From assembly GCA_022071965.1 (NCBI GenBank), contig JAJVIQ010000012.1, forward strand, positions 1-64,000: 64,000 nucleotides of DNA, written 5' to 3'. Origin of the DNA: Gammaproteobacteria bacterium (lineage in GTDB: Bacteria > Pseudomonadota > Gammaproteobacteria > JAJPIJ01). Below are positions 53,432 through 63,396 of this stretch, piece after piece. A program made the translations under genes and the position numbers. The stretch's first letter is position 1, and each line of letters starts with the position of its first letter. The notes below the pieces were generated by a model, which was not told the DNA's origin, ran no database searches, and saw only the letters and a list, made by a program, of their open reading frames with translations.

Positions 53432-55114
53432 GTGAGCACGGCATCCGTCACCAAGAGCAAGAAACCGCGCGGCACCCCACGCGGCCGCCAGGTCGACCCG
53501 AAGGCCCTCTCGGAGGTACGCGCCCTGCTGGGTGATGCGCCCCGGCGACGCGACCTGCTCATCGAGCACCTGCACCGGATCCAGGACCACTACAAGCAGA
53601 TCTCCGCGGCGCACGTGGTCGCCCTGGCCGAGGAGATGAACCTGCCGACCACGGAGGTCTACGAGGTCGCCACCTTCTACCACCATTTCGACGTGGTGAT
53701 GGAGAACGACGCCGCGGTGCCGGCTCTCACCGTGCGGGTTTGCGACTCGATCACCTGCGAGATGTTCGGCGCCAGGGCGCTGCTCGCGGACCTGCAGGCG
53801 CGGCTCGGCCCGGATGTGCGGGTGCAGGCCGCCCCATGCGTTGGTCGCTGCCACGCTGCCCCGGTCGCGGTCGTCGGCACCAATCCCGTCGACAATGCCA
53901 GCGCCTCCAGCGTGGAGGCGGCCGTCAAGGGTGCGCGGCACACAGCGGCGGTCCCGGAGGTCACCGGCTATGAAGAGTACCGGGCCGGCGGCGGATACGC
54001 CACGCTGCTGAAGTGCGTGGGCGGTGAGCTGAGCGCTGAAGCCGTGGTCAAGGCGCTGGAGGACTCCAACCTTCGCGGCCTCGGAGGCGCGGGATTTCCG
54101 GCCGGACGGAAGTGGCGCATCCTGCGTGATCAGCCCAGGCCGCGCATGATCGCCGTCAACATCGACGAAGGCGAGCCGGGCACCTTCAAGGATCGCTATT
54201 ATCTGGAGCGCGACCCACATCGCTTCCTGGAGGGCATGCTGATCGCCGCCTGGGCGATCGAGTGCGACGACATCTACATCTACCTCCGCGACGAGTACGC
54301 GGGCGTGCGGGCGGCGCTCACCGCGGAGCTGGAGGCCCTGCTGCGCAACCCACCCTGCCCGCTGCCGAAGAACATCCAGCTGCGGCGTGGGGCCGGCGCC
54401 TACATCTGCGGCGAGGAGTCCGCCATGATCGAGTCGATCGAGGGCAAGCGTGGCATGCCGCGTCTGCGTCCGCCCTATGTCGCGCAGGTGGGCCTGTTCA
54501 ACCGTCCGACGCTCGAACACAACATGGAGACGCTGTACTGGGTTCGCGACATCCTCGAGAAGGGCGCGGCCTGGTTCACCTCCCACGGGCGCCACGGGCG
54601 CAAGGGACTGCGTTCGTTCTCGGTGAGCGGACGCGTGCAGAAGCCGGGCGTGCACCTCGCCCCGGCCGGCATCACCATGCAGGAGCTGATCGAGGAGTAC
54701 TGCGGCGGCATGCTGCCCGGGCACAGCTTCTATGGATACTTCCCCGGCGGCGCCTCCGGCGGCATCCTGCCGGCGTCCATGGGCAATATCCCCCTGGACT
54801 TCGACACCCTGAATCAACACGGCTGCTTCATCGGCTCGGCGGCGATCATCGTGCTCTCCGACAGGGACAGCGCCCGCGGCGCAGCCCTGAACGCGATGCG
54901 GTTTTTCGAGGACGAGTCCTGCGGGCAGTGCACGCCCTGCCGCGTGGGCACCGCCAAGGCCGTGATACTCATGGAAAAGAAGGAATGGGACGGCGAGCTG
55001 CTCGAGGAACTGGCCAGCGCCATGGCTGATGCCTCGATCTGCGGCCTCGGACAGGCAGCGCCCAATCCGCTACGTTGCGCGATGAAGTACTTCCCGCAAG
55101 AATTCAACCAGTGA
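53432..55114 (+). CDS. fdhB: NAD-dependent formate dehydrogenase, diaphorase subunit (NuoE-NuoF fusion)
   Basis: A 560-residue protein joining a NuoE-like [2Fe-2S] domain (CDSITCEMFG and CVGRCHAAP, about residues 105-150) to a NuoF-like domain with the NADH/FMN motifs GLGGAGFPAGRKW and GAGAYICGEESAMIESI and a [4Fe-4S] motif ESCGQCTPCRVG. This fusion is the beta subunit of the soluble formate dehydrogenase Fdh1 type of Methylobacterium. It passes electrons from the formate site to NAD. The start is GTG 53432 with AGGAAGG upstream at 53417-53423. It lies 44 bases after fhcC, so formate made by Fhc is oxidised by products of what is probably the same operon. Confidence 0.94.
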   Translation: MSTASVTKSKKPRGTPRGRQVDPKALSEVRALLGDAPRRRDLLIEHLHRIQDHYKQISAAHVVALAEEMNLPTTEVYEVATFYHHFDVVMENDAAVPALTVRVCDSITCEMFGARALLADLQARLGPDVRVQAAPCVGRCHAAPVAVVGTNPVDNASASSVEAAVKGARHTAAVPEVTGYEEYRAGGGYATLLKCVGGELSAEAVVKALEDSNLRGLGGAGFPAGRKWRILRDQPRPRMIAVNIDEGEPGTFKDRYYLERDPHRFLEGMLIAAWAIECDDIYIYLRDEYAGVRAALTAELEALLRNPPCPLPKNIQLRRGAGAYICGEESAMIESIEGKRGMPRLRPPYVAQVGLFNRPTLEHNMETLYWVRDILEKGAAWFTSHGRHGRKGLRSFSVSGRVQKPGVHLAPAGITMQELIEEYCGGMLPGHSFYGYFPGGASGGILPASMGNIPLDFDTLNQHGCFIGSAAIIVLSDRDSARGAALNAMRFFEDESCGQCTPCRVGTAKAVILMEKKEWDGELLEELASAMADASICGLGQAAPNPLRCAMKYFPQEFNQ

Positions 55115-55135
55115 TCCAGCCCCGAGCAGAATGCC

Positions 55136-57898
55136 ATGGCCGCCAATCCCGCTGACATCCCGTTGCCCGAGACCACCACCTTCACGCTCGACGGCCGCAG
55201 CATCCAGGCGCTGCCGGACGAGACGATCCTGCAGGCCGCCAAGCGCAACGGCATCGACATCCCGCACCTGTGCTACATGGACGGCTATCGGTCCGACGGC
55301 AACTGCCGGGCCTGCATGGTCGAGATCAAGGGCGAGCGCGTGCTCGCACCCTCGTGCTGCCGCGCCCCGACCGCCGGCATGGAGGTCGCCGCCAGGAGCG
55401 AGCGCGCGGTGAGGTCGCAGAAGATGGTGGTCGAGCTGCTGCTCGCGGACATCCCCGGGCAGGGCAAGTCTCCGTACTCGCCGCGCTCGGAGCTGGACCG
55501 GTGGGCAGCCCACCTCGGGCTGGGTGTGCCACGCTTCGAGGGCCGCCACCAGCCCGCCTGCGACCTCAGCAATCCGGCAATCGCGGTGAATCTGGATGCC
55601 TGCATCCAGTGCACGCGCTGCGTGCGCGCCTGCCGGGAGGAGCAGGTCAACGACGTCATCGGCTACGCCTTCCGCGGGCATCATTCGAAGATCGTTTTCG
55701 ACCTCGACGACCCGATGGGCGAAAGCACCTGCGTGAGCTGCGGAGAGTGCGTGCAGGCCTGCCCCACGGGTGCCCTGATGCCGGCGAACAACGTCGGCCA
55801 GGCCAGGATCGACCGGCAGGTGCACTCCGCCTGCCCGTATTGCGGCGTGGGGTGCCTGCTCACCTTCAACGTGAGCAACGAGCGGATCATGTATGTCGAC
55901 GGCCGCGACGGACCTGCGAACCAGAGCCGCCTGTGCGTGAAGGGCCGCTACGGTTTCGACTACGTCCACAATCCGCTGCGACTGACCAAACCGCTCATCC
56001 GGCGCGCCGACGCGCCGAAATCGACCGCGCTCATCCCGTCCAGCGAGATGGGCAGGTATTTCCGCGAGGCGAGCTGGGAGGAGGCGCTTGATTTCGCCGC
56101 CGCGGGACTGCGCAAGATCCGCGACGGACGCGGTCCCAACGCGCTTGCCGGATTCGGCAGCGCCAAGGGCAGCAACGAGGAGGCCTACCTCTTCCAGAAA
56201 CTGGTGCGCACCGGATTCAGGACCAACAACGTCGATCACTGCACGCGCCTGTGCCATGCCTCCTCGGTGGCGGCGCTGCTCGAGGGCATCGGTTCCGGCG
56301 CGGTCTCCAATCAGGTCGCGGACGGCACGGCGGAGTCCGAGGTGATCGTCGTCATCGGCGCGCGACCGACAGTGAACCACCCGGTCGCCGCCACGTTCAT
56401 GAAGAACGCGGCAAAAAGGGGCACGAAGCTGATCGTCATCAGCCCACAGGTGATAGAGCTGGAGCGCTACGCGACGCACTACCTGAAGATCCGCCCGGCC
56501 TCCGATGTCGCGCTGCTCAACGCCATGATGCACGTCATCGTCAGCGAGGGGCTGCAGAACGACGCCTACATCGCCGAGCACACCGAGGGATTCGAGGCGC
56601 TGCGCAAGAAAGTTCTGCAGTACACGCCCGAGAAGATGTCCGCGATCTGCGGGATCGATCCGGAGACGATCCGCGAGGTGGCGCGCCTGTATGCCACCTC
56701 CAAGGGCTCGATCATCTTCTGGGGGATGGGCATGTCCCAGCACATCCACGGCACGGACAACTCCCGCTGCCTCATCGCGCTCGCGCTGATGACCGGCCAG
56801 ATCGGGCGCCCGGGCACGGGCCTGCACCCGCTGCGGGGCCAGAACAACGTCCAGGGGGCCTCCGACGTCGGGCTCATTCCGATGGTCTTCCCGGACTACC
56901 AGCGGGTCGACAATCCCGAGGCCAACGCCTACTTCGAGAAGTTGTGGGGCACGAAACTCGACCCCAAGCCGGGACTGACGGTCGTGGAGATCATGCACGC
57001 CGTGCATGACGGCAAGGTGCACGGCATGTACATCATGGGCGAGAACCCGGCCATGTCGGACCCGAATCTCAACCACGCCCGCCAGGCACTCTCCGAGCTC
57101 GAGCATCTCGTGGTGCAGGACATCTTCTTCACCGAGACGGCGAGCTATGCCGACGTCGTGCTGCCGGCCTCCGCGTTCCCGGAAAAGACGGGAACCTTCA
57201 CCAATACCGACCGGCGCGTACAGCTCGGCAGGCAGGCCATAAAGCCGCCTGGCGAGGCCAGGCAGGACCTCTGGCTCATCCAGGAGGTCGCCCGACGGAT
57301 CGGACTGGACTGGAATTACGACGGTCCCGGGGACGTCTGGAACGAGATCCGGAAGGCCGCGCCGAGCATGGCCGGCATCACCTGGGAGCGGCTCGAATCG
57401 GAAGGCTCGGTCACCTACCCCTGCGAGCGGGAAGGCGACCCCGGGGAGCCCGTGATCTTCACCGACCGGTTCCCGACCAAGTCCGGGCGGGCGCGGTTCG
57501 TCCCGGCGGATTACTCCTCGGCGGCGGAGCTGCCGGACCAGGACTACCCGTACGTCTTCATCACCGGACGCCTGCTCGAGCACTGGCACACGGGCAGCAT
57601 CACCCGCATGGCGACCGTCCTGGACGCCATCGAACCCGGCCCGACAATCGTCGTGCATCCCGCGGATGCCGCGCGGGTCGGCGTCGATCCCGGGGCGCTC
57701 GCGACCGTGGAGTCGCGCCGCGGACGGGTGACCGCGCACGTACGGGTCAGCCGTGAGGTCCAGATCGGCAGCGTCTTCATGGCCTTCGCCTTCAACGAGG
57801 CGGCCGCCAACCTCATCACCAACGACGCCCTGGATCCGTACGGGAAGATCCCGGAGTTCAAGTTCTGCGCGGTCCGACTGACCCGCGCCGCGGCCTGA
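55136..57898 (+). CDS. fdhA: NAD-dependent formate dehydrogenase, catalytic alpha subunit
   Basis: A 920-residue molybdo/tungsto-pterin enzyme oxidising formate to CO2. From the N-terminus: a NuoG-like [2Fe-2S] domain (CYMDGYRSDGNCRACMVEI), two [4Fe-4S] ferredoxin motifs (CIQCTRCVRAC and CVSCGECVQACPTG), the proximal cluster motif CPYCGVGC, and the pterin domains with the active-site Cys-His pair in CTRLCHAS near residue 377. The Cys replaces the selenocysteine of some formate dehydrogenases. Metal (Mo or W) cannot be told from sequence; the Methylobacterium Fdh1 relative uses W. ATG 55136 follows fdhB by 21 bases. Confidence 0.95.
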   Translation: MAANPADIPLPETTTFTLDGRSIQALPDETILQAAKRNGIDIPHLCYMDGYRSDGNCRACMVEIKGERVLAPSCCRAPTAGMEVAARSERAVRSQKMVVELLLADIPGQGKSPYSPRSELDRWAAHLGLGVPRFEGRHQPACDLSNPAIAVNLDACIQCTRCVRACREEQVNDVIGYAFRGHHSKIVFDLDDPMGESTCVSCGECVQACPTGALMPANNVGQARIDRQVHSACPYCGVGCLLTFNVSNERIMYVDGRDGPANQSRLCVKGRYGFDYVHNPLRLTKPLIRRADAPKSTALIPSSEMGRYFREASWEEALDFAAAGLRKIRDGRGPNALAGFGSAKGSNEEAYLFQKLVRTGFRTNNVDHCTRLCHASSVAALLEGIGSGAVSNQVADGTAESEVIVVIGARPTVNHPVAATFMKNAAKRGTKLIVISPQVIELERYATHYLKIRPASDVALLNAMMHVIVSEGLQNDAYIAEHTEGFEALRKKVLQYTPEKMSAICGIDPETIREVARLYATSKGSIIFWGMGMSQHIHGTDNSRCLIALALMTGQIGRPGTGLHPLRGQNNVQGASDVGLIPMVFPDYQRVDNPEANAYFEKLWGTKLDPKPGLTVVEIMHAVHDGKVHGMYIMGENPAMSDPNLNHARQALSELEHLVVQDIFFTETASYADVVLPASAFPEKTGTFTNTDRRVQLGRQAIKPPGEARQDLWLIQEVARRIGLDWNYDGPGDVWNEIRKAAPSMAGITWERLESEGSVTYPCEREGDPGEPVIFTDRFPTKSGRARFVPADYSSAAELPDQDYPYVFITGRLLEHWHTGSITRMATVLDAIEPGPTIVVHPADAARVGVDPGALATVESRRGRVTAHVRVSREVQIGSVFMAFAFNEAAANLITNDALDPYGKIPEFKFCAVRLTRAAA

Positions 57899-58158
57899 TC
57901 AGCCGGCAGACTCCCGACCTCCATGTGCCCGGGTGGCGGGATGGAGGACCCCGTCCCGTCGCCGCGCTCGCGCGCGGGGTCGTCAGGGTCGTCCCATATC
58001 CGGGAATTGCGCACTGCAGCAGCGCCCGGACATCCCTCACACCAGACCCGTCGTCGCTCTGGCTCACGCCGCGAATTTATGGAAAATGACAGGCATGGGT
58101 GCGGGGCGGTCGGCCGACCGCCGGCCGCGACGAAGATGCTGAGGAGGAGCCTGCAGAC

Positions 58159-58401
58159 ATGACGCGATACAAAGACGTCTTTGAATTGAGCGTGCAAGAC
58201 ATCGAGCTCATCGAGAGAGCGCTGAGAAATGAGATTGGCGAGCTCAGTGGCCGGCTCCACGTCAGCCCGATGGAAGCCGCCCACGAGCACCGCGAGGACG
58301 AGGCACATATACGGCGGCTGCACGAGGTGCTGGGCAAGCTGCACAACCAGAAGATCTTCTACGGGCAGGCCAACCAGACCGGGATACCGATCTCCGGCTG
58401 A
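58159..58401 (+). CDS. Small conserved-looking protein after formate dehydrogenase genes
   Basis: An 80-residue, highly charged, helical protein (FELSVQDIELIERALRNEIG at residues 8-27, then HREDEAHIRRLHEVLGKLHN) ending in FYGQANQTGIPISG. GAGGAGGAG lies nine bases upstream of ATG 58159, a strong ribosome binding site, so it is very likely translated. It has no signal peptide, cysteines or known motif. It stands 260 bases after fdhA on the same strand. It does not resemble the short FdsD subunit of other formate dehydrogenases as I recall it, but a formate-dehydrogenase or methanol-related accessory role is possible. Confidence 0.75.
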   Translation: MTRYKDVFELSVQDIELIERALRNEIGELSGRLHVSPMEAAHEHREDEAHIRRLHEVLGKLHNQKIFYGQANQTGIPISG

Positions 58402-58463
58402 GGGTGATGCGCGCCGCCGCGGTGCGTCGGACTCCGCGGCACCGCCGGATGCGAGACCGGCGC

Positions 58464-59291
58464 CTACCGCGTGGCCGCGGAGGTCAGTTCCAAAGGTCCC
58501 ACCGACGTAAGGCGCAGGTATTCCTCGAGCACGGGGACGGATCCGGGCGCGCTGTCTGCCGGTGCCGGCACCAGCGTGTGGATTTCGTAGAGGTACCCCG
58601 GTATCTGCTCCGAGACCGTGAAGGTGTACGCCTTGTCCTTCAGCCTGCGAAACTTCTCATTGATCTCCGCCTTCGGATCATCCACATAGGGCGTGATCGT
58701 GACCTGCTTCGCGGGCAGCTTCCTGCCCTCGAACTCGATCTCCGTGTCGGCAATCGTGGCCTTGGTCGCCAGGGCGAACTTGATGCGCTGCTGGAAGTAG
58801 CGCGTGCCGCCCTCCGTCAGGCGTTTCATCTCGAGGATGTCTCCCTGCAGGAAAATGGCGAGCAGAACGTTGCCGTTGATGGCCTCGTACGGCGGGATAG
58901 ATAGGTGGCGCTGGCCGGTGAAGAAATCCACGGTTGCCTTCTTCATGCCCTCGGGCAGAAGCTCGGTGACATGCAGATGCACCCTGTCCGTAAACCCTTC
59001 TTCCAGCGACCCCGCTTTCCTGAATTCGTACTTGAGCGTCGCCGGCCGGGCGACGCCCTTCAACTGGTCGCCGAGCCACAGCAGCGTCTCCGCCGCCGAT
59101 ATGGGCGGCAGCGACTGTCCTTCCCCGGCCGCCGCAGGCTCGCCGGCCGCGGGCACGCCGTCACCTTCCGCTGTGCCCGCCTCCGTCGCCGGTGCCGCCC
59201 CCGGGGCGGTAGCGTCATCCTGCTGCGCCCGCGCAGCCGGGGCCATCGACATGGCGGTCAGTAAAATCCCCAGGATGATGCCAGGACTCAT
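58464..59291 (-). CDS. Exported protein of unknown function downstream of xoxJ
   Basis: A 275-residue protein with a signal peptide (MSPGIILGILLTAMSMAPAA, cleavage near ARA-QQ), then a Glu/Ala/Pro-rich flexible stretch to about residue 62 and a folded domain (residues 70-265) with many beta strands, for example LKYEFRKAGSL, RVHLHVTELLP and YTFTVSEQIPGYLYEI. There are no cysteines in the mature part and no motif I can name. It follows xoxJ by 26 bases on the same strand, so it is probably the last gene of the pseudoazurin-xoxJ unit and acts in the periplasm near methanol dehydrogenase. Confidence 0.75.
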   Translation of the reverse strand: MSPGIILGILLTAMSMAPAARAQQDDATAPGAAPATEAGTAEGDGVPAAGEPAAAGEGQSLPPISAAETLLWLGDQLKGVARPATLKYEFRKAGSLEEGFTDRVHLHVTELLPEGMKKATVDFFTGQRHLSIPPYEAINGNVLLAIFLQGDILEMKRLTEGGTRYFQQRIKFALATKATIADTEIEFEGRKLPAKQVTITPYVDDPKAEINEKFRRLKDKAYTFTVSEQIPGYLYEIHTLVPAPADSAPGSVPVLEEYLRLTSVGPLELTSAATR

Positions 59292-59317
59292 CGCTATCGC
59301 CCTCGATCGGCAAACGC

Positions 59318-60283
59318 CTACTGCGCGGCCGCGCCGGCCTCCCCGGCTCCCGCCTGACCGTTGTCATCAGCCGGTGCCGGGCCATCGTCGTCATCTGCGC
59401 CGTCGTCGTCACCCGACGCCGCCTGTTTGCCGATGTCCACTTCCAGCAACGGCACGCCGTACTCCGCAAATATCCGGCTGATGTCCTCGCGGTGCTTCTC
59501 GATGAGCTCGTTGACCTGCTGCTTCCACTCCTTCTCCCCGTAACGCACCGCCATGGAGAAGGTGAAATCGAACTTTATACCGGGCTCGGACTTCATCGGG
59601 ATCACCACGAGCTCCACGTCCTTGATCTTCTTCGACATATAGCCCGCGATGGGGCCCCATTCGAACGTGAGGTCGATCTTGCCCTGTACCAGGTCCTGAT
59701 CGATGATTCGCCCCGGGTAATCCGACAGGTCCGCCGTCTGGTGCTGATAGGGTACCATGTTGTCGAACAATCCGTGTTTGAAGGCCCAGTCGGTCGCAGG
59801 TCCCCGATCGTAGAGTCCGATGCGCAGCTTCTTCTTGCGCTCCTCCGGCAGATTGACGAGGTCCTCGGGGGTATGGATGTCATCGAGTCCGCGGCCTTTC
59901 ACGTAGACCATCGCCCACGTCGAGCGGTAATAGGGCTCGGTGGTGGCGGCCATGTCGAATCGCTCCGGCACGCTCATCACGAGATCGCATTTGTACGAGC
60001 CGTCCGGGTTCTCTTTCTTCAGCGAATTTCGAAGGAACTTGAATCGCTGCGGGAACCAGTAGAACTCCAGCGGCAGACCGAGACTGTCGGCGAACACCTT
60101 GGCAATCTTGTTCTCGAAGCCTTCCTGCTTCTCGTTGGACGCCGGCAGAGCATTGGGATCCGCGCAGACCTTCAGCGCGGTGCGGGGAGGTGCGCCCTCC
60201 GGCTGTGCGATGGCGGCGAAGCTTGCGGCAGCGAAAACGACGGCAATGACGACACTACGACCGACAGCGTACATGCGTTTCAT
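59318..60283 (-). CDS. xoxJ: XoxJ-type periplasmic solute-binding-like protein
   Basis: A 321-residue protein with signal peptide (cleaved near AIA-QP) and an extracellular solute-binding fold, family 3 type. LKVCADPNALPASNEKQEGFENKIA is the characteristic start of MxaJ/XoxJ proteins, followed by YWFPQRFKFLRNSL and DLVMSVPERFDMAATTEPYYRSTW. XoxJ is thought to help activate XoxF or bind its lanthanide-PQQ site. The C-terminus carries an unusual acidic tail of about 35 residues (GDDDGADDDDG). GGAG lies six bases before ATG 60283, preferred over ATG 60289. It follows the pseudoazurin gene by 206 bases on the same strand. Confidence 0.92.
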   Translation of the reverse strand: MKRMYAVGRSVVIAVVFAAASFAAIAQPEGAPPRTALKVCADPNALPASNEKQEGFENKIAKVFADSLGLPLEFYWFPQRFKFLRNSLKKENPDGSYKCDLVMSVPERFDMAATTEPYYRSTWAMVYVKGRGLDDIHTPEDLVNLPEERKKKLRIGLYDRGPATDWAFKHGLFDNMVPYQHQTADLSDYPGRIIDQDLVQGKIDLTFEWGPIAGYMSKKIKDVELVVIPMKSEPGIKFDFTFSMAVRYGEKEWKQQVNELIEKHREDISRIFAEYGVPLLEVDIGKQAASGDDDGADDDDGPAPADDNGQAGAGEAGAAAQ

Positions 60284-60489
60284 GGACATCCTCCAGCGCG
60301 GCCTTCTGCGCTTTTCAGGGCTAGCTGCAACACACTCGCCTGACCGACCGTCGGCGTCCGGACGCCGGCTGCCGGCACAGCCGAAAAGACTGGGGCGGTC
60401 CGCCTGTCGTTTTCTTTCCAGGCAGACCGCCTCGCCTGACAAGTGTGAATTCAGGACTCGCTACGCTGCCCTTTCACGAGTATCCCCGT

Positions 60490-60918
60490 TTACGGGAACA
60501 ACTTCGCGAGCTTCTTGCCCATGCGCTTGACCAGCGGATTGGAGCTCGCATTGATCGCATCCAGATTGGCAGGCTTGCCATCGCCCACGAGGATCACGCC
60601 AACCATGCCCATGGAGGCGTGGGGCACGCATTCGTATACGTAGGCGCCCGGCACGTCCAGCTTGACGTGGAAATCTTCGTTCAACTTGCCTTCCCACTGC
60701 TGAGCGCCCTGCGGCACCTCGATGGACTTGGTGTTGTGGGTGCTCATGTTCTTCCAGGCAATCGTGTCGCCGGGCTGCGCCTTGACGAGGCTGATGTTCA
60801 AATCGGGATCGATGGGATCGAAATTGCGGGGGCCCGCGATGATTGTCACCTCGCCAGCAGACGCAGCCATCGAGGCCGCCAGCGCGAGGGAAAAGATCCC
60901 AAACTTAATCATTTTCAT
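60490..60918 (-). CDS. Pseudoazurin (type 1 blue copper protein)
   Basis: A 142-residue periplasmic copper protein with signal peptide cleaved near ASA-GE (residue 21). The copper ligands are His61 (in STHNTKS), Cys97, His100 and Met105 (CVPHASMGM), with the Cys+3 His and Cys+8 Met spacing of pseudoazurins; MGMVGVILVGDG continues the family pattern. Pseudoazurins carry single electrons to nitrite reductase, cytochromes or dehydrogenase partners. It lies between xoxF and xoxJ, the place usually held by the cytochrome c XoxG, so it may be the electron acceptor of XoxF here. ATG 60918 has GGAGAG eight bases upstream. A 600-base gap with a terminator separates it from xoxF, so it is a separate transcription unit. 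Confidence 0.93.
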   Translation of the reverse strand: MKMIKFGIFSLALAASMAASAGEVTIIAGPRNFDPIDPDLNISLVKAQPGDTIAWKNMSTHNTKSIEVPQGAQQWEGKLNEDFHVKLDVPGAYVYECVPHASMGMVGVILVGDGKPANLDAINASSNPLVKRMGKKLAKLFP

Positions 60919-61519
60919 GCTTCATCTCTCCAGAGTGATTGTTGGTGAACTGCCTGTTGATGTTCGCCCACTGTCATCCGTGGCGCGCCTTCGGTGTTTT
61001 TCTTCCATGCGGACGCGAAATCCGCTGAATTAGAAGCCCCCGCGTGATGAAAGTTCATCGAACCGGCAGTCGTCTCGTTGGCGGCCCGTCACGCGCGAGA
61101 CACCATTCAGCGGCGATTCAGGACGCTCGATTCCAACCCAAACGAGGAGATCGCGTAGCTCGAAAAATGCGGCGGAAAACCGTGCAAATTCGCGGATGCT
61201 TTATACGATAGCCGGGCGAAAACTACAATGTCCATTCTTCCCGTCCTGGACTCGGACCTCGCCCCTGCGGGGTCGATCCCGATGGCAGACGACGCCGTGT
61301 CATTGGTTGCCGGGCATATCTCCATAGGCCGACGGGCGAGTGCGCGGGTGGATGTTCGGGCCGAACCGGCTCCGCCAGCCCTCGCGGTCGGGAACAATCC
61401 GGAAAGGAAAAGCCCGGTACCTCGCGAGAAGTACCGGGCTCAGGTCAACTACGGCATTTGATGTTGTTATGAAACGAATCGCTGCACTTCTGAACTAGGT
61501 AATGACCGATGTCGGCACC
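60919..61519. other. Intergenic region between xoxF and pseudoazurin gene
   Basis: Six hundred bases with no credible gene. The left part must hold the promoter of the pseudoazurin gene (minus strand), and the right part holds the xoxF terminator at 61401-61440. Short frames on both strands (61228-61461 plus, 61107-61397 minus) have no ribosome binding site, and the first runs straight through the terminator stem. AT-richer patches occur at 61160-61230. Confidence 0.5.
61401..61440 (-). terminator. Rho-independent terminator of xoxF
   Basis: A perfect 10-bp inverted repeat, AGCCCGGTAC at 61411-61420 with GTACCGGGCT at 61431-61440 and a ten-base loop, is followed on the minus strand by TTTCCTTTCC. 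It lies 80 bases past the xoxF stop codon. Confidence 0.85.
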
Positions 61520-63376
61520 TTACGGCAGCGCATAGACCATCAGCACGCCGCCGTTCTTCGAGACGCTCTTCAGAGCGCGATAGCCGCCGGCCGCACCGAG
61601 CGCCCACTCATCCGGAGCGGTCTGCTCTTTTCGGAACGCGACCACCGCACCGGCCCAGCCACCGATACCGGACAGCACGCCGATGTACTGCTTGCCGCCG
61701 TGCACCCAGGTGTGGGTGTTGCCGATGATGCCCGAGGGCGCCTTGTGCTTCCACAGCAGCTTGCCGCTCTTCTGGTCCACCGCCTTCTCCCAGCCTTCCA
61801 GCGTGCCGTAGAACGCGATGCCGCCGGCGGTCGTCAGAACGCCCGACCACACCGACCACCGCTCCGGGATCGACCAGACGATCTTGCCTGCGTCGGCATC
61901 CCACGCGATGAAGTTGCCCATGTTGTCGTTGGTCTCGCTGTTGCCGAACTCCGGACCCGGAGACACCTTGCCGGCCGGGAACATCGTCAGGTTCGCAAAC
62001 ACGTACGGCTTGCCGGCCTCGTACAGCGGGCTGGAGACAGGCTCATACGTCATGCAAACGTGATTGGTCGGCACATAGAACAGACCCGTCAGCGGGCTGT
62101 AGGCAGCCGGCTGCTGATCCTTGGTGCCCAACGCCGCCGGGCAGATGTCCTTGGAGACGGTATCCTCGCCGCCGGAGTGCGTCGACTTCGACTCCACCAC
62201 CAGCGGACGGCCGGTCTTCATGTCCACGTGCGTGGCCCAGTTCACCGCCGGGTCGAACTTCTCCGCCACCAGCAGCTCGCCGGTGACACGGTCCAGCGTG
62301 TAGCCGAAGCCGTTGCGGTCGAAGTGCACCAGGACCTTGCGGTCCTTGCCCTTGACCTTCATGTCCACGAGGATCATCTCGTTGATGCCGTCGTAGTCCC
62401 ACTCATCGTGCGGGGTCATCTGGTAGGCCCAGCGGGCCATGCCGGTGTCGACGTCACGCGCGATGATGGACATGGACCACTTGTTGTCGCCCGGACGAAC
62501 CGTCGGGTTCCAGGTCGAGGGGTTGCCCGTGCCGTAGTACAGCAGGTTCTCCTCCTTGTCGTACGGCCACCAGCCCCAGGTCGAGCCGCCGCCGATCTTC
62601 CACTGATCGCCCTTCCAGGTCTTCAGCGAAGAGTCCTTGCCCACCGGCTTGAGCATCGAGGTGGTCTTCTCCGGATCCATCAGGATGTCGCCGTCCGGGC
62701 CCATCGAGTAGGCGCGCCAGACCAGCGAGCCGTCCTTGATGTTGTAGGCGTTCAGCCAGCAACGCACCCCGAACTCCGCGCCCGACATGCCGGTGATCAC
62801 CTTGTCCTTCATCACGTGCGGGGCGTTGGTGTTGGTCTGACCCAGCTTCGGATCCCCGTTCTTGATCTCCCACACCTTCTCGCCCGTGCCCGCCTTCAGC
62901 GCCACCAGCGTGGTGTCGTTCTGCTGCAGGAAGATCATCCCGTCGCCGTAGCCCAGACCACGGTTGACGTTGTCGCAGCACAGCACGCCCTGCACGCTCT
63001 CCTCCTGGATCGGATCGTATTCCCACACGATCTCCAGGGTATCCAGATCGATGGCGAACACGTCGTTCGGGAACGCGGAGTGGATGTACAGCGTGTCGTT
63101 GCTACGGCCCGTGGCCTCTGCCGGCAGCACCAGCGGGCCGCCCTCGTGACCCTGCAGACGGCCCGTGGAGAACGTCCACGCCACCTGCAGCTTGTCCACG
63201 TTCGAGGTGTTGATCTGGTCCAGCGAGGAGTAGCGCCAGTTCCAGTAGTTCAACCCCGGGAAGGCCCAGTAGTTCGGGTTCTTCATGAGCTTCTCGACGC
63301 TTTCGTTCGCGAATACCACACTCGGTACCGCCAACGAGAGGGCCGCGAATACCCACTTTTTGTTTAGTTTTCGCAT
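61520..63376 (-). CDS. xoxF: Lanthanide-dependent PQQ methanol dehydrogenase XoxF
   Basis: A 618-residue periplasmic quinoprotein with an N-terminal signal peptide (cleaved near VFA-NE). It oxidises methanol using PQQ and a lanthanide ion. The lanthanide mark is Asp329 two residues after catalytic Asp327 in EWDYDGINE; calcium-type MxaF has Ala there. The vicinal disulfide Cys133-Cys134 (GVLCCDN) and tryptophan-docking motifs of the eight-bladed propeller (for example [12 protein letters not shown]) are present. ATG 63376 has AAGGAGGAGG upstream and gives [13 protein letters not shown] 63394 is less likely. It is monocistronic, ending in a terminator. No MxaF, MxaI or XoxG gene lies in the window. 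Confidence 0.97.
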
Positions 63377-63396
63377 GACCTCCTCCTTACGCACTA

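Follow-up and report, generated by a model that had tools for sequence, protein, structure and literature searches.

A putative periplasmic accessory protein of lanthanide-dependent methanol dehydrogenase encoded behind xoxJ and taken as the counterpart of Orf7 of Methylorubrum extorquens

The orf6 and orf7 genes of Methylorubrum extorquens AM1 and the window locus

In Methylorubrum extorquens AM1 the genes xoxF1 (META1p1740), xoxG (1741) and xoxJ (1742) are followed by three genes and then by orf6 (1746), orf7 (1747), pqqE (1748), pqqCD (1749) and pqqB (1750), as given by PMC7391723. According to the same source, orf6 and orf7 emerged from a transposon screen, and orf7 was deleted in 2020, its function being left unassigned there. 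On methanol plus La the orf7 deletion strain showed a lag of 9 h and grew at 0.08 per h, as compared to 0.16 per h for the wild type, and the rates of the orf6 and xoxJ deletion strains were 0.03 and 0.04 per h, respectively; the authors report a need for orf6 and orf7 only when La was supplied (PMC7391723). For XoxJ and MxaJ, an action on apo-dehydrogenase that is still partly folded has been proposed, and a SoxYZ-like carrier, zinc metallohydrolase 2 and a CXXCW rhodanese are treated in the same article (PMC12997753). It should be noted that in the PMC search only PMC7391723 was found to mention orf6 and orf7 with xoxF, or META1p1746/1747; subscription papers mostly lie outside this search, and an earlier naming of the family is possible.

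The window, i.e., the whole 64,000-nucleotide stretch of gammaproteobacterial DNA that was analysed, carries on its minus strand, in this order, xoxF, a pseudoazurin-like gene, xoxJ and the gene under study (Table 1). The protein encoded by this gene is together with its homologues referred to as FAM, and all FAM counts refer to that family. The neighbours named in the original prediction (xoxJ, pseudoazurin and XoxF) agree with the scores of curated models: XoxF reaches 680 bits with TIGR03075 (PQQ methanol/ethanol dehydrogenase; cut-off 480) and has 6dam, a XoxF, as closest solved structure, and the pseudoazurin-like protein reaches 38 bits with Pfam Copper-bind (cut-off 21), although with 81 bits it stays below the cut-off of TIGR02375 (110).

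Table 1. Features of the xox locus and of the FAM protein (coordinates refer to the window unless another contig is named)
Feature	Position	Strand	Basis or remark
fdhB + fdhA	53432..57898	+	converging on the xox genes; listed as neighbours, with no claim that they belong to the system
80-aa ORF between fdhA and FAM	58159-58401	+	no Pfam or NCBIfam match
FAM (orf7-like) CDS	58464..59291, stop included	-	275 aa, ATG start; homologues known
LolA/RseB-like domain (likely fold class), residues 63-268	58488..59105	-	predicted model and fold comparison
Ala/Pro/acidic linker, residues 23-62	59106..59225	-	homologue alignment; pLDDT mostly <50
Likely Sec signal peptide, residues 1-22	59226..59291	-	by eye, ARA/QQ
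xoxJ-like ORF	59318..60442, probable ATG near 60289	-	TIGR03871 262 bits, cut-off 212
Acidic tail of XoxJ	59318-59431	-	3' end of xoxJ
Pseudoazurin-like cupredoxin, CxxHxxxxM copper motif	60490..60918	-	Pfam and NCBIfam
Terminator-like hairpin, 14 pairs	61410-61441		between xoxF and the pseudoazurin-like gene
xoxF ORF, lanthanide type	61520..63394	-	DEWDYD in translation
H2, small exported four-cysteine protein	contig C12 64062-64505 (= L122 2063-2506), just past the window end	-	

Several observations on the locus itself are added here. The pseudoazurin-like gene stands where the cytochrome XoxG is usually encoded, and its CxxHxxxxM motif is kept in 50 of 50 distinct pseudoazurin-like sequences; in the PMC literature searched, only two papers mention xoxF and pseudoazurin together. 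Because of the hairpin behind xoxF, this gene may be expressed above those downstream of it. A promoter scan of 57850-61600 returned 2 sigma-70-like sites, where 1.0 was expected, and is given no weight. The acidic tail of XoxJ has parallels: at least 3 consecutive Asp within the last 30 residues were found in 22 of 64 distinct XoxJ sequences from FAM loci. In the window's own genome the search found PqqE twice, one PQQ-ABC beta-propeller and one SoxYZ-like carrier, all over cut-off, so that, judged by these matches, PQQ supply and quinoprotein accessories are present.

The connection to AM1 is made by a Methylobacterium-like locus (L116) with the order xoxF, cytochrome c, xoxJ, folK, folB, folP, H2, FAM, pqqE, pqqCD and pqqB, in which xoxF, xoxJ, folK, pqqE, pqqCD and pqqB were called by NCBIfam and the cytochrome c by phmmer, while profiles identified H2 and FAM, and folB and folP were read by eye. 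This eleven-gene order is that of META1p1740-1750, and the XoxJ of the locus matches the solved XoxJ of M. extorquens AM1 (6onp) with 477 bits. A second locus (L117; XoxJ 435 bits) repeats this order, apart from an additional ORF on the plus strand that follows xoxJ. Since FAM lies there in the slot of orf7, beside pqqE and paired with H2 near xoxFGJ, it is taken by gene order as the counterpart of orf7 (META1p1747), and H2 as that of orf6. The window differs from AM1 in that its FAM gene stands directly behind xoxJ, H2 lies upstream of xoxF and the acceptor gene is pseudoazurin-like. The original prediction had spoken of a possible unrecognised part of the XoxF system; the link to the system holds up, whereas "unrecognised" stands only in part, the gene matching orf7 by its order. 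That FAM is a putative soluble periplasmic accessory of the lanthanide-dependent methanol dehydrogenase, counterpart of Orf7 of M. extorquens and with the maturation role proposed below, is given by us a chance close to even.

The neighbourhood of pqqE in these two loci could also be read as a sign that FAM carries PQQ or aids its insertion, and a half-barrel of the kind described below could hold a small ligand. Among the part of the loci looked through for pqq, such genes were, however, noticed beside FAM in L116 and L117 only, the need for orf7 is La-specific (PMC7391723), while a defect in PQQ would be expected to affect the Ca enzyme as well, and FAM was found in 0 of the 55 Pseudomonadota genomes with a PQQ alcohol dehydrogenase but without XoxJ. 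A role in PQQ handling is for these reasons considered improbable.

The protein and its predicted fold

The FAM open reading frame is a genuine gene and not a chance one, because a search of 143 related genomes found homologues in 17 of them (including that of the window; best other E-value 1e-148) and at 49 loci of titled genomes. It follows the xoxJ-like ORF at the predicted distance of 26 bases (59292-59317), and its ATG is preceded by GAGG, 9 bases before. The expected layout of the protein, which was an export signal, a flexible acidic/Ala-Pro linker and a beta-rich domain, is recovered. Residues 1-22 look by eye like a signal peptide; residues 23-62 consist of Ala, Pro, Gly and acidic residues, have mostly low confidence in the model, where they appear disordered, and vary in length between relatives in the alignment; and residues ~63-268 are predicted to form a single domain of nine strands and two long helices, in which most ten-residue blocks have a pLDDT of at least 90. 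The helical pair, which is conserved, comes in addition to what had been predicted. The window protein has no Cys and therefore no lipobox. In the alignment of 22 homologues, from which the FAM profile was also built and from which one partial sequence (L039) was excluded, D102, D151 and D205 are nearly invariant.

In comparisons of the model with known structures, Foldseek gave as best matches LolA-superfamily proteins, LprG and LppX, with E-values of 2e-5 to 1e-3 and TM-scores by query of at most 0.30. The top rows of VIA-align were MucB, a YmcC-like protein, an uncharacterised Thermus protein, RseB, a putative lipoprotein, LppX, a sponge ependymin-like protein and LolA, with Z-scores from 9.4 to 8.1 over 134-152 residues at 4.0-5.6 A; MucB was best (Z 9.4 at 4.0 A) and LolA entries lay at Z ~6 to 8, which should be read against best Z-scores of typically 7-8 for models without a clear match. 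Entries for LolA, LppX, LprF/LprG, RseB, MucB or NE2245 made up 31 of the 50 VIA-align rows. On these modest matches, a LolA/RseB-like half-barrel is a likely fold class of the modelled domain. The predicted strands and the helical pair align with LolA/LolB, LppX/LprG and RseB/MucB, from which FAM differs by having no Pfam match, no lipobox, a single domain and another gene context. Members of this fold class hold lipids or peptides, and it is from this that FAM is proposed to hold a client or a ligand.

The family libraries returned nothing that would name the protein. Window FAM had no match at E 10 to Pfam or to NCBIfam, and thus to neither TIGR03871 nor TIGR03870, and none in PHROGs. Five homologues searched against Pfam at E 1 matched no LolA-type family; one weak row, TRAM_2 (E 0.047), was under its cut-off. 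Against PDB sequences neither the single sequence nor the profile found a credible match, the sole row, 4che_A (E 0.42), being taken as chance. In the viral structure library nothing lay below E 0.001, and among IMG/VR viral contigs 14 matches to the FAM patterns included 0 relatives.

Two readings are touched directly by these data. The three nearly invariant acids would suit a periplasmic lanthanide carrier passing Ln3+ to XoxF or XoxJ, as would the strict tie of FAM to XoxJ genomes and lanthanide-type XoxF and the need for orf7 reported with La only (PMC7391723). The acids lie, however, in separate secondary-structure elements, no EF-hand was seen, LanM and LutD are already described as lanthanide binders of M. 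extorquens in that same paper, and many XoxJ genomes had no FAM match (see below). We consider a lanthanide carrier unlikely. The other reading makes FAM an RseB/MucB-like periplasmic sensor arm, by which the XoxF or lanthanide status would be passed to a membrane kinase and so to xox expression. MucB and RseB are indeed among the best fold matches, on Paroceanicella and Salipiger plasmids genes of the sensor and response-regulator type precede FAM and H2, and the FAM gene of S. meliloti has a response regulator and a FIST gene upstream. But RseB-type proteins have a second domain, where the FAM model shows one domain and the sequence no Pfam match, and in the window no sensor or regulator genes adjoin FAM. 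This reading is held to be distinctly unlikely.

Distribution of the family and its gene neighbourhoods

When 398 Pseudomonadota genomes were searched with the profile of 22 homologues, 17 genomes from ten families proved to carry FAM. XoxJ was counted in 40 of the 398 (TIGR03871 matched at E<=0.001 in 105 genomes, of which only the 40 above the curated cut-off were taken as XoxJ) and a PQQ alcohol dehydrogenase (TIGR03075, E<=1e-100) in 95. The three sets are nested: 17 of 17 FAM genomes lie within the 40 XoxJ genomes, and 40 of 40 XoxJ genomes within the 95, so that homologues do not occur mostly in genomes without xoxF, and every FAM genome has both XoxJ and a PQQ alcohol dehydrogenase. For the co-occurrence of FAM and XoxJ, P is 3e-19 in the 398 genomes, 3e-18 when the window's genome is left out, 2e-13 by genus (12 of 12 within 24 of 213) and 3e-8 inside the 95 PQQ alcohol dehydrogenase genomes, where all P values are guides only since genomes share ancestry and are not independent. 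The sequence comparisons thus support that the family is tied to XoxF systems. In 23 of the 40 genomes with XoxJ the profile search found no FAM, which means that maturation of XoxF is possible in its absence. LolA-like folds often have general envelope functions, and FAM might for this reason be thought of as a hitchhiker in the operon with an envelope role unrelated to XoxF. Yet no FAM was found outside XoxJ genomes among the 398, and the association with the XoxF system persists though the gene order varies between loci. Hitchhiking is by this co-occurrence largely refuted, and its probability is judged to be minimal.

The companion H2 occurs in most XoxJ genomes. It was found in 37 of the 398 genomes, with 36 strong matches that all lie within the 40 XoxJ genomes and a single weak one outside (G243, E 2.5e-4), and is present in 17 of 17 FAM genomes; the XoxJ genomes without H2 are G358, G417, G494 and G531. 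Its four cysteines are invariant in 29 aligned sequences and its model is helical (mean pLDDT 83). The H2 encoded past the window end has no Pfam or NCBIfam match, and its fold found nothing better than E 1.7 against the PDB. Common ancestry of FAM and H2 is unsupported (hhalign probability 3.5 percent over 5 columns). HMMER --max detected no diverged FAM next to H2 in 20 regions (best E 1.8), namely those of the 19 genomes that have XoxJ and H2 without a FAM match, plus G384. In 10 of these 19 genomes (L138, L141, L142, L145-L148 and L150-L152) a CXXCW rhodanese-like gene stands beside xoxJ; its product is possibly an alternative accessory where FAM was not found.

Titled genomes were scanned with two conserved peptide patterns, which biases the 49 loci obtained to closer relatives. 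Their records are gammaproteobacterial or proteobacterial apart from two titled Klebsiella pneumoniae (L049, L050), which are metagenome-assembled and carry this xoxF operon, and whose titles look wrong. At 49 of 49 loci xoxJ is directly upstream of FAM on the same strand, and the distance between the stop of xoxJ and the point where the FAM open frame begins is at most 58 bases in 47 of them and 157 and 261 in the other two. Within the DNA examined, a number of contigs ending early, xoxF was seen at 34 loci, fdhA plus fdhB at 30 and H2 at 24. Among the class-level loci, the window's own aside, xoxJ stands beside FAM in 14 of 16; of the remaining two, L038 has a cytochrome c gene directly upstream of FAM, xoxJ not being found beside it, and L039 has a partial FAM at the contig end, without any reference match in 9 kb. 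At the phylum level, the window's locus again excluded, XoxJ lies inside the stretch examined in 10 of 16 loci and elsewhere in the genome in the other 6, three times on the same contig ~13-22 kb off. FAM matches were present in 95 plasmid records (73 from Sinorhizobium). Eight of the 95 records, hand-picked for spread, were inspected; a dehydrogenase gene was in the stretch in 6 of 8, and the Thiodictyon and Paroceanicella stretches held other quinoprotein accessories only. Commonly, FAM is encoded beside xoxJ, H2 or, in Methylobacterium-like genomes, pqqE. The motif DEWD[YF]D, which we take to be the lanthanide signature of XoxF, was present in 46 of 46 distinct XoxF sequences that FAM loci yielded. 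Contig duplicates across sets were removed, by sequence, only for the XoxF-motif/mirror-tree and the P-value/XoxJ-tail/pseudoazurin-motif counts. It may be added that in L022, L133 and L134 (Rhodobacterales and Sinorhizobium plasmids) FAM-H2 pairs lie near response-regulator, FIST or sensor-type genes.

These neighbourhoods bear on a further option of the original prediction, namely that FAM couples XoxF or XoxJ to pseudoazurin. A pseudoazurin match was found at 46 of the 49 gammaproteobacterial loci; in two of the three others (L048, L051) the contig ends inside xoxJ, and Methylohalomonas lacus (L086) has none at its FAM locus. But at the phylum level a cytochrome c and XoxJ are both present at 10 of 16 loci and a pseudoazurin match at 0 of 16, and FAM occurs also in cytochrome c-type systems such as those on the Azoarcus and Roseomonas plasmids. 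Because cytochrome c is the acceptor gene at these 10 loci, the coupling proposal is considered very improbable.

A proposed step in XoxF maturation

For the role of FAM, assembly, i.e., maturation of XoxF beside XoxJ, is tentatively favoured over lanthanide delivery. FAM would leave the cytoplasm by Sec export and be soluble in the periplasm, where its LolA/RseB-like half-barrel may transiently hold a segment, non-polar or unfolded, that belongs to apo-XoxF or to a partner. Together with XoxJ and the cysteine protein H2/Orf6 it would help the dehydrogenase to become active, loaded with PQQ and lanthanide. From the modelled fold class and the gene context alone we infer this chaperone step.

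Some comparisons with other accessories are of help here. Like XoxJ and MxaJ, FAM is a putative exported accessory of the same dehydrogenase and is encoded next door, but XoxJ is a solute-binding protein and FAM has no match to its model or to that of MxaJ. SoxYZ-like carriers, zinc metallohydrolase 2 and CXXCW rhodaneses are likewise accessories encoded at loci of this kind; they are separate families, however, which are also found at XoxJ loci where FAM was not. With MxaE and MxaH of the calcium system FAM shares that they are exported accessories of a methanol dehydrogenase. Homology to these two, which was considered because of a MxaD-like gene near FAM in the Thiodictyon locus, was rejected: in ten mxa-like regions, picked as TIGR03871 matches below cut-off and carrying mxa names that are presumed by us from position, a FAM or H2 match (E<=10) was found in 0 of 10. 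Among the genes placed behind the MxaD-like one, a beta-propeller match was found in 8 of the 10 regions and, by eye in the mxa-like region L131, a helical lipoprotein.

Which protein is the client was approached by mirror-tree comparison. The distances of FAM track those of XoxF with fdhA held fixed (partial r 0.61, 0 of 2000 permutations), while FAM and XoxJ gave a partial r of 0.31 given fdhA (17 of 2000) and of 0.10 given XoxF (466 of 2000), and FAM and fdhA one of 0.45 given XoxJ (3 of 2000); with n=17, proteins of unequal length and shared ancestry not fully removed, these results are mixed and weak. As FAM follows XoxF more than XoxJ, they lean to XoxF rather than XoxJ as client.

The question behind these proposals is how XoxF receives its lanthanide and PQQ. 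More specific than the maturation role itself, and on balance rather doubtful, is the idea that FAM and H2 (Orf7 and Orf6) work in the periplasm as a module of two proteins dedicated to sensing or loading apo-XoxF, in which a half-barrel that holds the client acts with a four-cysteine helical protein. This would be a maturation pathway for lanthanide enzymes that the calcium Mxa clusters examined lack, and a neighbouring two-component system may be connected to it in some alphaproteobacteria. What the comparison brings is, first, that a gammaproteobacterial gene is linked to orf7 of a genetically tractable methylotroph, and that its family is given a likely fold and shown to have a strict phyletic pattern; second, that H2/orf6 emerges as a near-constant companion of XoxJ. 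Two orphan hits from a screen in one strain would thereby become a defined, testable module in ten families of Pseudomonadota.
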